Source: Bacteroidia bacterium
GTDB taxonomy: Bacteria > Bacteroidota > Bacteroidia > B-17B0 > Aurantibacillaceae
Length of the DNA stretch: 64,000 bases
Assembly (NCBI GenBank): GCA_018000995.1
Contig: JAGNIU010000017.1
Location: forward strand, 1-64,000
Direction: 5' to 3'
In this document: positions 49,560-53,455 of the stretch, piece by piece
How positions within the stretch are numbered: position 1 is the first letter of the stretch
Layout of the letters: each line of letters starts with the position of its first letter
Program-made: the position numbers and the translations under genes
Notes under the pieces: generated by a model
Databases searched by the model: none
Seen by the model: the letters and a program-made list of their open reading frames with translations, nothing else
What the model was told of the DNA's origin: nothing

Positions 49560-49592
49560 TTTGGAGCTAATTAAAATTATGCCTTATATTTG
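49560..49592 (+). promoter_or_regulatory. Promoter of the met leader
   Basis: TTTG (49560-49563), 21-bp gap, TATATTTG (49585-49592): both boxes match the Bacteroidota consensus. The transcript should begin near 49599, just before the leader's first hairpin. Confidence 0.8.
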
Positions 49593-49600
49593 CCCCAGAT

Positions 49601-49625
49601 TAATTACCCACCTGGTGCGTAATTA
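49601..49625 (+). ncRNA. 5'-terminal hairpin of the met leader
   Basis: TAATTAC/GTAATTA arms with an inner CAC-CTG-GTG stem form a strong hairpin at the very start of the transcript. Its last three bases overlap the 5' strand of riboswitch P1. Confidence 0.55.
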
Positions 49626-49759
49626 GTTTATTAAGAAGTGGCGAGAGAATAGGCTCATTGACCCACTGGCAACCAACTAAAAGTAGCGAGTTTTTATCGA
49701 GCTATTGGAAAACAGGTGCCAACTCCTACTCTGATGAAAAACAGAGGCAAATAAATTAA
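49623..49759 (+). promoter_or_regulatory. SAM-I riboswitch aptamer
   Basis: All SAM-I parts are present: P1 TTAGTTTATT (49623-49632) with AATAAATTAA (49750-49759), ten pairs with one G-U; P2 AGTGG (49637-49641) with CCACT (49663-49667); the invariant CTGGCAACC; a P2-loop TAGG (49650-49653) able to make the pseudoknot with CCTA (49725-49728) in J3/4; P3 through TAGC/GCTA and CCAA/TTGG; the core AGGTGCCAACTCCTAC; and P4 CTCTG/CAGAG (49729-49733/49742-49746). SAM binding stabilises P1. The genes downstream (metX, hom) make the methionine precursor, which fits. P1 ends 10 bases before the leader ORF's ATG, so P1 could control access to that start. Confidence 0.93.
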
Positions 49760-49769
49760 ATACGAAATA

Positions 49770-49892
49770 ATGAAAACAGAAATTCAAAACAAAAAAATCG
49801 GTGGCGGCGTAACCTGCGCTCGTTCTAGTATTAAATCTATTTTCCATCACGCCTTCATGTGTTGTATGTGCTGCTGTTGCTGCATGTGCTAG
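49770..49892 (+). CDS. 40-codon leader peptide with C-terminal Cys/Met run
   Basis: ATG at 49770 and stop TAG at 49890. The peptide starts MKTEIQNKK, has GGGVTCARSS in the middle and SIFHHAFM near the end; its last ten residues are CCMCCCCCMC (eight Cys and two Met). It is 10 bases after the riboswitch P1. Such a cluster of two sulfur amino acids, placed between a SAM riboswitch and met genes, is what a ribosome-mediated sulfur sensor would look like: stalling at Cys codons when Cys-tRNA is short. A metal-binding or toxic micropeptide is the alternative. Too short for a domain search; not a chance run, since eight of ten adjacent codons are TGT/TGC. Confidence 0.75.
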   Translation: MKTEIQNKKIGGGVTCARSSIKSIFHHAFMCCMCCCCCMC

Positions 49893-49901
49893 TGTTTTAA
49901 A

Positions 49902-49963
49902 AACTTTTATCTCAAAAGTTAAAACCCGGCACGCAAGCCCGGGCTTTAGGTGTATTATGCACC
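49902..49963 (+). terminator. Three hairpins after the Cys-rich leader, middle one terminator-like
   Basis: AACTTTT-ATCTC-AAAAGTT (49902-49920); CCCGG(C)/(G)CCGGG (49925-49943), GC-rich but followed only by CTTTAGG, a poor U-tract; GGTGTA-TTA-TGCACC (49949-49963). The middle stem is the best terminator candidate for attenuation. I do not find a clear antiterminator strand in the leader ORF. Confidence 0.45.
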
Positions 49964-49975
49964 ATCAAAAAATTA

Positions 49976-50044
49976 AACCGTAGGATACTTTATTCTATCG
50001 GCTAAAAAAAACAAACTCACTAAGGATAAAGTATCCAACGGGTT
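49976..50044. repeat. Long stem-loop upstream of the 73-residue gene
   Basis: GGATACTTTATTCT (49983-49996) pairs with AGGATAAAGTATCC (50023-50036), 14 pairs with one G-U. Flanking AACCG and ACGG(G)TT extend it to about 20 pairs with an A-A mismatch and one bulge. Loop about 26 nt, A-rich. No T-run follows, so not a terminator. Confidence 0.6.
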
Positions 50045-50067
50045 AAAAACATTTAAAATTTAAAACC

Positions 50068-50289
50068 ATGAACAAAATTAAAATAGATACCAAAACAAAT
50101 TTAATAGGCGACATCAACCACAAAGGGTTTTTAGAGTTGCAATCAGCATACGGCATCGCACAAAGAGGCGGTTCCATTATTTCAAACTTATCAAACAATC
50201 ACGCTAAGCGTATTTCGACTGATGTGAATTTGTTGAGTAAAGATGAAACAAGAAAATTAATTTTTAACGAAACCATTTATAGTAACTAA
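50068..50289 (+). CDS. 73-residue orphan protein in the met operon
   Basis: 73 residues, no signal peptide, basic, mixed alpha/beta. MNKIKIDTKTNLIGDINHKG, then LELQSAYGIAQRGGSIISNL and NLLSKDETRKLIFNETIYSN. It is 2 bp before metX and 176 bp after the leader ORF. I do not recognise a family; it does not resemble a fragment of MetX, MetY or homoserine dehydrogenase. Codon use is like its neighbours, so it is probably a real small gene, perhaps a regulator or subunit in methionine synthesis. Confidence 0.6.
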   Translation: MNKIKIDTKTNLIGDINHKGFLELQSAYGIAQRGGSIISNLSNNHAKRISTDVNLLSKDETRKLIFNETIYSN

Positions 50290-50291
50290 CC

Positions 50292-51350
50292 ATGAGCTCT
50301 AAAACTTTTAAATACAATAAAGTGTTTACGTTAGAAAGTGGTATTTCATTGCCTTCACTTGAAATTGCTTACAATACTTACGGCACACTTAATAAAGAAA
50401 AAAATAATGTTGTTTGGGTAAGCCATGCCCTTACCGCCAACAGCGATGTGTTTGATTGGTGGAAAGGTTTGTTTGGCGACAATGAGTTATATAATCCAAA
50501 CGATTATTTTATTGTTTGTGCTAACAACTTAGGTTCTTGCTACGGAACAACCGGACCATTAAGTATTAATCCGGATACCACTCAACCTTGGTTTAGTTTC
50601 TTTCCGCATATTACTGTTCGTGATCAAGCTAAAACTTTGGATGTGTTACGTCAACATTTAGGCATTGAAAAAATTCATACACTAATTGGCGGTTCTTTGG
50701 GTGGACAAATTGCACAAGAATGGGTTTTTGAAAAACCAACTTTGGTTGAAAATTTAATTATTGTGGCTACGAATGCAAAACATTCTCCTTGGGGTGTTGC
50801 CTTTAATGAATCGCAACGTTTGGCAGTGAAAGCTGACAGAACGTATTATGGGAACAGCGAAGATGGCGGACAAAAAGGACTATCAGCTGCACGCAGCATT
50901 GCCTTGTTGAGTTACAGAAATTACAATACTTATAATGCAACACAACAAGAAACGAATTTGAATAAGGTAAATGATTTTGCTTCTTCTTCTTATCAACGTT
51001 ATCAAGGTGAGAAATTAGTGAAACGTTTCAATGCATACTCGTATGTTCGCTTATCGGAAGCGATGGATTCACACAATGTGGCAAGAAATCGTCATGAAGC
51101 TGTGGAGCATTCTTTAGCAACCATCAAAACAAAAACTTTAGTAGTTGGAATTAGCTCTGATATTTTATTTCCTCCTGCTGAACAACAGTTCTTAGCGAGA
51201 CATATTCCAAATGCTCAATACAGCGAAATTGATTCGTTTTATGGCCATGATGGATTTTTATTGGAAACAAAACAATTAACAGACGTTATCAAACAATTTT
51301 ATTCAACAACAAAAAAAGAAACATTAAAAAATAAATTAGCATTAATATAG
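50292..51350 (+). CDS. metX: Homoserine O-acetyltransferase
   Basis: 352 residues, alpha/beta hydrolase fold. The nucleophile elbow is GGSLGGQIAQEW (Ser), the His-loop is FYGHDGFLLE, and the acid is likely Asp in SSDILFPPAEQQF. The N-terminal ANSDVFDWWKGLFG and NNLGSCYGTTGPLSI blocks match MetX. It acetylates L-homoserine with acetyl-CoA, the first committed step to methionine. hom follows at 2 bp. O-acetylhomoserine sulfhydrylase is not in the window. Confidence 0.95.
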   Translation: MSSKTFKYNKVFTLESGISLPSLEIAYNTYGTLNKEKNNVVWVSHALTANSDVFDWWKGLFGDNELYNPNDYFIVCANNLGSCYGTTGPLSINPDTTQPWFSFFPHITVRDQAKTLDVLRQHLGIEKIHTLIGGSLGGQIAQEWVFEKPTLVENLIIVATNAKHSPWGVAFNESQRLAVKADRTYYGNSEDGGQKGLSAARSIALLSYRNYNTYNATQQETNLNKVNDFASSSYQRYQGEKLVKRFNAYSYVRLSEAMDSHNVARNRHEAVEHSLATIKTKTLVVGISSDILFPPAEQQFLARHIPNAQYSEIDSFYGHDGFLLETKQLTDVIKQFYSTTKKETLKNKLALI

Positions 51351-51352
51351 TT

Positions 51353-52606
51353 ATGGGACAAACATTAAAAATAGGATTATTTGGTTTTGGCTGTGTAGGT
51401 CAAGGCTTATACCACGTATTAAAAAACAGCAAAGGCTTTAAAGCTGATATCGTAAAAATTGTTGTCAAAAATAAAAGCAAAGAAAGACCTTTGGATAAAG
51501 GCGTCTTCACATTCGATAAATACGAGATTTTGGATAATCCCGAAATCAACGTGATCGTTGAATTAATTGATGATGCCGAAGAAGCTTTCAATATTGTGAG
51601 TTATGCTTTAAGTAAAGGCAAACATGTTGTGACTGCCAATAAAAAAATGGTCGCACAACATTTACAAGAACTTTTTGATTTACAACACAAAAACAATGTG
51701 TCGTTATTGTATGAAGCGTCGAGTTGTGGAAGTATTCCAATTATCAGAACATTGGAAGAGTATTTCGATAATGAGCAAATAGAAAAAGTGAGTGGTATTT
51801 TTAATGGGACTACAAATTACATTCTCACAAAAACCATTAACGAAAAACTATCTTATCCTGAAGCCTTAAAACAAGCGCAGGAAAAAGGTTTTGCTGAAAG
51901 TGATCCAACCAATGATGTGGAAGGCTTTGATGCGAAGTTTAAAGCTATCATTATCGCCTTACATGCTTTTGGAATATTTGCTAAGCCTGAAGACGTTTTA
52001 AATATTGGGATTACTACATTACATCCAAATGATATTACTTACGCCAACGAAAAGAATCTGAAAATTAAATTAGTTCCTACAGTTAAAAAATTAAATGACA
52101 AACAGGTTTCTGTTTTTGTATTACCAAAATATGTAAACGCAGATAATCATTTATATAGTGTGGATAATGAATTTAATGGTGTTATTGTTGATGGTGAGTT
52201 CTCCGGTGAACAGTTTTTAAAGGGTAAAGGCGCCGGAGGCCACCCAACAGGAGCTGCAGTTCTTTCTGACATTTCTGCTTTATCATACGGTTATAAATAC
52301 GAATACAAAAAACAGAAACAAAGTCCGCATTTGGAGTTTACGAATGACGTAACCTTAAAAGTTTATTTCCGTTACAATAAACAAACAGACTTGGAGAAAT
52401 TAGATTTCCTAAAAGTGACAGAGCGCTATTCAGGAACAGATTATAATTATGTAGTTGGATATGTTGCCTTAGAAAACATTACTGCTAATAAAGAACACAT
52501 TCTAAAGAACAACTTATTCATTGCTTTAATTGGAGAAGAAATTCAACAAACGTTAAAATCCGAAAAGCAGGAGAAAAAAGGATTATCTTTAAGTATAAAT
52601 GCGTAA
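51353..52606 (+). CDS. hom: Homoserine dehydrogenase
   Basis: 417 residues. Rossmann N-domain GLFGFGCVGQGLYHVL, then VVTANKKMVAQHL, the catalytic-domain signature FNGTTNYILT, and AESDPTNDVEGFDAKFKAII. The C-terminal 60-70 residues (KVTERYSGTDYNYVVGYVAL) may be a small ACT-like regulatory module. It reduces aspartate semialdehyde to homoserine. It overlaps the SGNH hydrolase gene by 8 bp (ATGCGTAA). It is stand-alone, not fused to aspartokinase. Confidence 0.93.
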   Translation: MGQTLKIGLFGFGCVGQGLYHVLKNSKGFKADIVKIVVKNKSKERPLDKGVFTFDKYEILDNPEINVIVELIDDAEEAFNIVSYALSKGKHVVTANKKMVAQHLQELFDLQHKNNVSLLYEASSCGSIPIIRTLEEYFDNEQIEKVSGIFNGTTNYILTKTINEKLSYPEALKQAQEKGFAESDPTNDVEGFDAKFKAIIIALHAFGIFAKPEDVLNIGITTLHPNDITYANEKNLKIKLVPTVKKLNDKQVSVFVLPKYVNADNHLYSVDNEFNGVIVDGEFSGEQFLKGKGAGGHPTGAAVLSDISALSYGYKYEYKKQKQSPHLEFTNDVTLKVYFRYNKQTDLEKLDFLKVTERYSGTDYNYVVGYVALENITANKEHILKNNLFIALIGEEIQQTLKSEKQEKKGLSLSINA

Positions 52607-53320: not shown

Positions 53321-53398
53321 ATGAAAACAACAGCTCAAATACATCATCATCATACTTACTCCAACAAGGTAAGCGTGGGTGAATTTTGTACTTTATAA
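53321..53398 (+). CDS. His-rich leader peptide (hisL-like)
   Basis: 25 residues: MKTTAQIHHHHTYSNKVSVG and EFCTL, stop TAA at 53396. Four consecutive His codons (CAT, 53342-53353) follow Ile-7. The ORF sits between a perfect promoter and a rho-independent terminator in front of hisG, the arrangement of hisL in enterobacteria. The ATG is about 3-4 bases from the inferred mRNA 5' end, so translation begins almost without a leader. Confidence 0.9.
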   Translation: MKTTAQIHHHHTYSNKVSVGEFCTL

Positions 53399-53455
53399 AG
53401 ACTAATACAAAACTAATTTATACGAAGGCTTACCATTACGGTAAGCCTTTTTTAT
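53355..53455 (+). promoter_or_regulatory. his attenuator with alternative RNA pairing and terminator
   Basis: Segment 1 CTTAC (53355-53359), just after the His codons, can pair with segment 2 GTAAG (53369-53373). Segment 2 as GGTAAGC (53368-53374) can also pair with segment 3 GCTTACC (53428-53434), which is the left arm of the terminator. The terminator itself is AAGGCTTACC/GGTAAGCCTT (53425-53434/53440-53449), loop ATTAC, then TTTTTTATTT. Low His-tRNA: ribosome stalls, masks segment 1, 2 pairs with 3, transcription continues. High His-tRNA: 3 pairs with 4, termination. Confidence 0.88.

Follow-up and report, generated by a model that had tools for sequence, protein, structure and literature searches.

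A SAM-I riboswitch in series with a cysteine/methionine-run leader peptide upstream of methionine genes in Bacteroidota

Introduction

To our knowledge, very few cases are known in which a riboswitch and a leader open reading frame (ORF) jointly control gene expression, the example being the Mg/Pro systems of Salmonella. Poly-Cys leader ORFs were reportedly described in mycobacteria by Canestrari in 2020. In Salmonella, the mgtA and mgtCBR leaders combine a Mg riboswitch or an ATP element with an ORF containing Pro codons, and mgtA uses Rho (PMC3641672). Actinobacterial poly-Cys leaders are short ORFs with a Cys run at the stop codon, located before sulfur genes (Seliverstov, 2005, PMC1262725). 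In Firmicutes, tandems of SAM-I and T-box(Met) elements precede metX and metY (PMC9481103), and clostridial ubiG is controlled by an S-box plus a T-box(Cys) (PMC2940859). A Cys-codon attenuator, uORFC-8-2, lies before cysS in Rhodobacterales (PMC8632094), and B12 riboswitches associated with upstream ORFs (uORFs) were found in Mycobacterium tuberculosis (PMC11260477). The passages searched of the tandem-riboswitch review PMC9481103 contain no leader-peptide case. A survey of premature terminators, in the passages searched, gives leader-peptide systems as known only in Proteobacteria, in Actinobacteria and in the Firmicutes case that it reports itself, and Bacteroidota go unmentioned there. Within the open-licence literature, no published description was found of a SAM-I riboswitch associated with a leader peptide or a poly-Cys sequence in Bacteroidota.

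Such an association was proposed by a sequence-only reading of a genome of the class Bacteroidia. We report here its analysis in the window, i.e., the whole stretch of 64,000 nucleotides that was analysed, and its comparison with related genomes.

Results

The window contains a SAM-I (S-box) aptamer at 49623-49759 on the forward strand, with a P3 of the GAG/CTC subtype and a P1 made of A/U pairs only. The Rfam model RF00162 is matched end to end at 49625-49757 (+) with 66.2 bits, against a gathering threshold of 44.4, and two further A-U pairs lengthen P1 to 49623-49759. This aptamer is the sole Rfam match of the window, where no T-box RNA was detected by the same search. The aptamer core columns (AGA, GA, GGCT, GCAACC/CAACC, GGTGC and TCC) are invariant in 23 relatives. 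On sequence grounds, the RNA at 49623-49759 belongs to the SAM-I riboswitch class, and SAM binding is predicted. A candidate promoter lies at 49560-49592 (+), with TTTG at 49560-49563 and TATATTTG at 49585-49592 separated by a 21-nt gap; it fits what we take to be the Bacteroidota consensus, TTTG / TAnnTTTG. A second SAM-I aptamer is present in the source genome, without such a leader ORF.

The aptamer is followed by a leader peptide ORF of 40 codons at 49770-49892 (+, stop codon included), identified by ORF reading and by the conservation of its position, frame and tail composition. Its translation is MKTEIQNKKIGGGVTCARSSIKSIFHHAFMCCMCCCCCMC, ending in CCMCCCCCMC, that is, eight Cys and two Met in the final ten codons. 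Its AUG lies 10 nt past the extended P1 and 12 nt past the end of the Rfam match. The sequence-only reading had announced a complete aptamer with this P1 and, 10 bases further on, a 40-codon ORF with this tail, and both descriptions hold. The 3' strand of P1 and the A-rich initiation region of the leader (positions -16 to -10) together occupy 49750-49769 (+), as placed by the P1-AUG spacing; P1, if closed, would lie within the stretch covered by a ribosome at the leader AUG. The genes found in order after the leader are an orphan ORF of 73 amino acids (50068-50289, +), which is the first protein gene, metX for homoserine O-acetyltransferase (50292-51350, +; TIGR01392 at 1e-104, under the curated cut-off, and PF00561) and hom for homoserine dehydrogenase (51353-52606, +; PF00742 at 5e-53, NF004976 over its cut-off). 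The orphan ORF is conserved in the family, with 12 homologues aligned; it had no match in Pfam or NCBIfam, and its predicted structure, with a pLDDT of 51, was too poor for use. Its homologues (loci L020-L030, L044, L064, L065 and L095) are 71-81 amino acids long, share YGxAQRGG ... DVNxL and lie, in the source family, downstream of the leader and ahead of metX or metY.

Association of the leader with one aptamer subtype was clear-cut. The leader was present behind 25 of the 31 GAG/CTC-subtype aptamers and behind none of the 118 other SAM-I aptamers (Fisher p=4.5e-23), these 149 scorable aptamers of Bacteroidia being drawn from 41 relatives and from 129 class genomes picked irrespective of the leader. 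In this independent sample of 129 genomes, 14 GAG aptamers had the leader and six did not, against 0 of the 105 other aptamers, and the leader occurred in 12 genomes belonging to six families. In the 41 relatives, GAG/CTC-subtype aptamers carry the leader with two exceptions, and the common GGG/CCC subtype never does. In one exception (L016), the leader region falls in an assembly gap. The other (L040, on contig G008:C34) is the second GAG-subtype aptamer of its genome, lies before a GH18-like gene and is possibly a stray duplicate. One of the 25 leaders (L281) starts with GTG, and one short ORF (L223) has only CC. In family f15 (genomes G117 and G148, loci L230 and L243), the GAG aptamer is kept, but the ORF is Cys-free or absent, the aptamers without ORF standing before cystathionine-synthase-like genes; a GAG-subtype aptamer can therefore work without a Cys run.

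Scanning named genomes for the pattern yielded at least 120 stretches, with about 70 true members among the 80 matches listed. These include Mucilaginibacter, Pedobacter, Pontibacter, Fulvivirga, Chitinophaga, Cyclobacteriaceae, Saprospiraceae, Flavobacteriales, Thermoflexibacter and others, and the leader was absent from the non-Bacteroidota matches inspected among the matches listed. In a control scan of 395 genomes, the reversed pattern gave 0 matches versus 21 for the true one. A strict pattern applied to 296 genomes of the phylum gave four matches, all in the class Bacteroidia, and overlooks many true members, so that it bounds the spread within the phylum only loosely. A low-complexity TGY repeat fallen by coincidence behind an ordinary riboswitch would explain the repetitive codons and nothing else; it is ruled out by conservation, by the contrast of 25/31 with 0/118 and by the reversed-pattern control, and its probability is negligible. 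Both the small ORF and its Cys run are conserved in frame, in 92 distinct leaders, and the proposed serial arrangement of a SAM-I aptamer and a Cys/Met-run leader before met genes comes out of this comparison strongly supported. Many Bacteroidota appear to guard methionine and sulfur genes by a SAM switch together with a Cys/Met leader. The leader-bearing aptamers form a distinct subtype with an A/U-rich P1, the GC content of P1 being 10%, versus 34% in leaderless SAM-I aptamers.

The 92 distinct leaders, 28-54 codons long, have a diverged N-terminal part and a Cys-rich tail that abuts the stop codon, and 83 of them start with ATGAA. Cys accounts for 50% of the last twelve codons and for 1.2% of the rest of the leader, and is encoded by TGT (344) and TGC (240), near the ordinary usage of the window genes (18:8). 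Met is also enriched: among non-Cys residues, it represents 22.7% in the tail versus 1.4% before it (p=3e-63), and 34.8% versus 1.5% in the subset that was not pattern-selected (p=9e-31); shared descent of the leaders makes these p-values overstate independence, yet separate families, with residues that differ, show this pattern again. Because Met is enriched along with Cys, this is probably a sulfur-amino-acid tail in which both Cys and Met are read. The short ORF with its run of pathway codons is conserved in orthologues, as in ribosome-mediated attenuators. That the leader gauges the charging of Cys (or Met) tRNA, as first suggested, is thus favoured by the composition of its tail as regards what is sensed; the effect on the downstream genes is a prediction.

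Cys- and Met-rich peptides bind Cu and Zn, and Cys-rich upstream ORFs responding to metal exist. The tail might by analogy be a metal- or thiol-sensing arrest peptide, and not a sensor of tRNA charging. We consider this very improbable: the spacing of the Cys residues is not fixed, the N-terminus has diverged, both Cys codons are used and the genes downstream are those of sulfur amino acids. Between the near-identical genomes G007 and G005, the leader differs by a 42-nt insert, a multiple of three that keeps the frame of the tail, as expected of a translated ORF; translation of the leader is accordingly predicted from the alignment. Inserts of this kind were seen in frame inside the leader ORF of G007 (locus L043, about 42 nt) and of G001 (L026, about 39 nt); they contain palindromes (GGCGATG..CATCGC), are single-copy in each genome and are absent from G005.

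These Bacteroidota start translation without Shine-Dalgarno use. From the end of P1 to the leader AUG, the distance was 6-14 nt, with a median of 8, in most of the 84 loci with a placeable P1; in leaderless SAM-I, the first long ORF begins at a median of +78. Since P1 ends 6-14 nt before the AUG and supplies its A-rich upstream region, a closed P1 should hinder translation of the leader, which fits the near-constant spacing. Two independent attenuators in series could alternatively be envisaged, the SAM aptamer acting alone, for example by affecting elongation or the stability of the RNA, while the Cys/Met leader would act separately, with no gating by P1. Tandem SAM-I/T-box(Met) leaders were indeed described as separate logic inputs (PMC9481103), and the mgtCBR attenuators act independently (PMC3641672). 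Against such independence, the P1-to-AUG spacing is nearly constant, the A/U content of P1 is unusually high, part of P1 coincides with the A-rich initiation region, and the aptamer and the leader have no terminator of their own between them; we regard it as unlikely, with some weight left to it.

The genes that follow the aptamer and leader in relatives are mostly metY, metX and hom, and also sulfhydrylase genes. Sulfite/nitrite-reductase-type proteins are encoded early downstream at four loci (L073, L100, L119 and L130) and, at L117, after a Cys/Met PLP enzyme; such a PLP enzyme also occurs at L054. TonB-dependent receptors (L053, L114, L116 and L293), an OsmC protein (L075) and an NhaC-type antiporter (L122) are encoded at other loci. 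The unit of aptamer and leader thus resembles a cassette that serves sulfur assimilation and uptake, found as it is before genes of several such kinds. In two unrelated families, RimK-like ATP-grasp genes were also observed downstream of it (L120 and L281), one of them adjoining a luciferase-like monooxygenase.

The region past the leader (49893-50067, +) has no U-tract terminator and contains more C than G. It folds much better than shuffled sequences (z -6.3), partly through a hairpin of 13-14 bp. Three short hairpins are predicted there by folding and sequence comparison: T1, directly past the leader stop (49902-49920, +), T2 (49925-49943, +; CCCGG/CCGGG) and T3 (49949-49963, +; GGTG/CACC), the arms of T1 and T2 being kept paired in relatives by different sequences. 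The 13-14 bp hairpin, GGATACTTTATTC..GGATAAAGTATCC, spans about 49983 or 49988 to 50037, and close relatives are without it. Across relatives, the post-leader RNA shows a moderate degree of structure; its hairpins are clade-specific, and their arms are maintained by differing sequences. When a ribosome was placed at the stop codon in folding predictions, it covered the 5' arm of T1, and the first hairpin was lost in the clades examined; in such modelling this loss is largely geometry and would be compatible with several models.

U-tract terminators followed 5 of the 92 leaders, where 3.7 were expected from shuffles, and 41 of the 84 leaderless SAM-I platforms, where 2.9 were expected. The leader type thus lacks the expression platform with an intrinsic terminator, which is usual though not strictly defining for SAM-I. 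Attenuation of the classical kind, by an intrinsic terminator and an antiterminator, could draw on the post-leader hairpins kept in several clades by different sequences, and on the His leader of the same window, which has such a terminator. By contrast, the terminator counts given above and the high frequency found in leaderless platforms make it improbable, and no classical terminator/antiterminator pair was found after the leader. Pairing by the Cys run, examined as a general trp-like antiterminator, was rejected (mean z -0.51 versus -0.27 for an N-terminal control, not significant). Pairing of the aptamer 3' strands with downstream RNA gave no signal in the leader type, and none in the positive-control set either. 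The His-run leader peptide of the window, MKTTAQIHHHHTYSNKVSVGEFCTL (53321-53398), is followed by a perfect U-tract terminator at about 53424-53455, before hisG. For a Bacteroidota genome, this is a his attenuator of textbook form, and the lineage therefore uses such terminators elsewhere.

The start of the next gene usually lies about 100-150 nt past the leader. This bears on a translational attenuation of the mycobacterial poly-Cys style, in which a stalled ribosome opens a structure hiding that start. The anatomy of the tail is alike, with a Cys run at the stop codon (PMC1262725; Canestrari et al., 2020, as cited in PMC9031893); such a mechanism is nevertheless rather unlikely here, given this distance and a start that is mostly unpaired in predictions. 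Sequestration of the next gene start was rejected on the latter ground.

Base composition also sets the post-leader RNA apart, with C at 0.223 and G at 0.143, versus 0.16 and 0.17 in leaderless platforms and 0.172 and 0.160 in ordinary upstream regions. C minus G is +0.079 after the leader, as opposed to -0.009 for leaderless platforms (p=3e-20), with a higher frequency of YC dinucleotides (p=4e-15). A rho gene was found in the source genome. The features of a Rho-dependent attenuator, i.e., no intrinsic terminator, a rut-like RNA with C above G, and a rho gene, are thus found together, the rut-like composition being only suggestive of Rho.

Discussion

The conserved anatomy of the locus, the sulfur-amino-acid tail, the spacing, the biased base composition and the lack of intrinsic terminators are observed features, on which we base a model that we hold with a probability of about 0.58. 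It describes a two-stage cis-acting leader RNA in which P1 gates the leader, stalling at Cys/Met codons permits expression, and Rho most likely stops transcription. When SAM is bound, the closed P1 would deny ribosomes access to the leader ORF. At low SAM, the leader would be translated, and its Cys/Met-rich last codons would report the supply of charged tRNA-Cys and tRNA-Met. With ample charged tRNAs, the ribosome would reach the stop codon, depart and expose the C-rich, G-poor RNA, on which transcription would be stopped, most likely by Rho. With a shortage of charged tRNA, the ribosome would stall against the stop codon and cover the start of this region, and transcription would enter metX, metY or hom. 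Expression would thus be ON only if SAM is low and either Cys-tRNA or Met-tRNA is short. This polarity, with the stall as the ON state, seems the natural one because Met codons sit in the sensor of a met operon. The proposed part of Rho is suggested by base composition and by the missing terminators. Two results speak against the model: the Cys run shows no significant pairing with downstream RNA, and family f15 retains the GAG aptamer with no Cys run behind it.

A more far-reaching reading seems to us somewhat less likely than not. The leader itself would be the expression platform of the riboswitch, integrating SAM, Cys-tRNA and Met-tRNA and acting via Rho, and the whole would be a cassette movable across Bacteroidia, placed ahead of metY/metX/hom, of sulfite reductase genes and of genes for uptake.

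In terms of significance, a design comparable to the Mg/Pro control would be spread over much of the class Bacteroidia, with a contrast inside genomes between leaderless SAM-I, often provided with intrinsic terminators, and leader-bearing SAM-I without them. These Bacteroidota are predicted to sense SAM, Cys and Met through a single transcript. The cassette makes it possible to test clearly whether a riboswitch controls how a sensor peptide is translated where Shine-Dalgarno sequences are not used, and leads to dozens of small genes in species already sequenced, for example of Mucilaginibacter, Pedobacter and Pontibacter.

Compared with the described systems, the aptamer is a member of SAM-I (RF00162) with met genes downstream as in this class, and differs from it by a leader ORF 6-14 nt past P1 in place of an intrinsic terminator/antiterminator. 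The SAM-I/T-box tandems and ubiG take a similar decision on met or cys genes, from low SAM and uncharged tRNA; there, tRNA is sensed by RNA, the T-box, whereas in the proposed model it would be sensed by a translating ribosome. Cys codons in a uORF are shared with uORFC-8-2, which has two Cys codons, an intrinsic terminator and no riboswitch. In M. tuberculosis, B12 riboswitches are coupled to translation of a short ORF, as is proposed here, with another ligand and with amino-acid-run sensing not described (PMC11260477). The actinobacterial poly-Cys ORFs have in common with this leader a Cys run at the stop codon before sulfur genes and no obvious terminators. The mycobacterial ones are leaderless, their AUG being the 5' end of the transcript, and have no riboswitch; by contrast, the present ORF begins past a complete aptamer, and Met is mixed into its run. 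The tail at the stop codon, the absence of a terminator and the C-rich RNA directly behind recall Rho attenuation of the tnaC/mgtA type, and also what was suggested for mycobacterial cys leaders (PMC1262725). The likeness extends to mgtA and mgtCBR, with a signal element, an amino-acid-run ORF, no intrinsic terminator, and Rho shown or proposed (PMC3641672), whereas here the ligand is SAM, the codons are Cys and Met, and the RNA, the genes and the phylum are others. Judged by this comparison, the principle of a ligand element joined to an amino-acid-run ORF is known from mgtA and mgtCBR, and its form as a SAM-I aptamer with a Cys/Met leader would be new.
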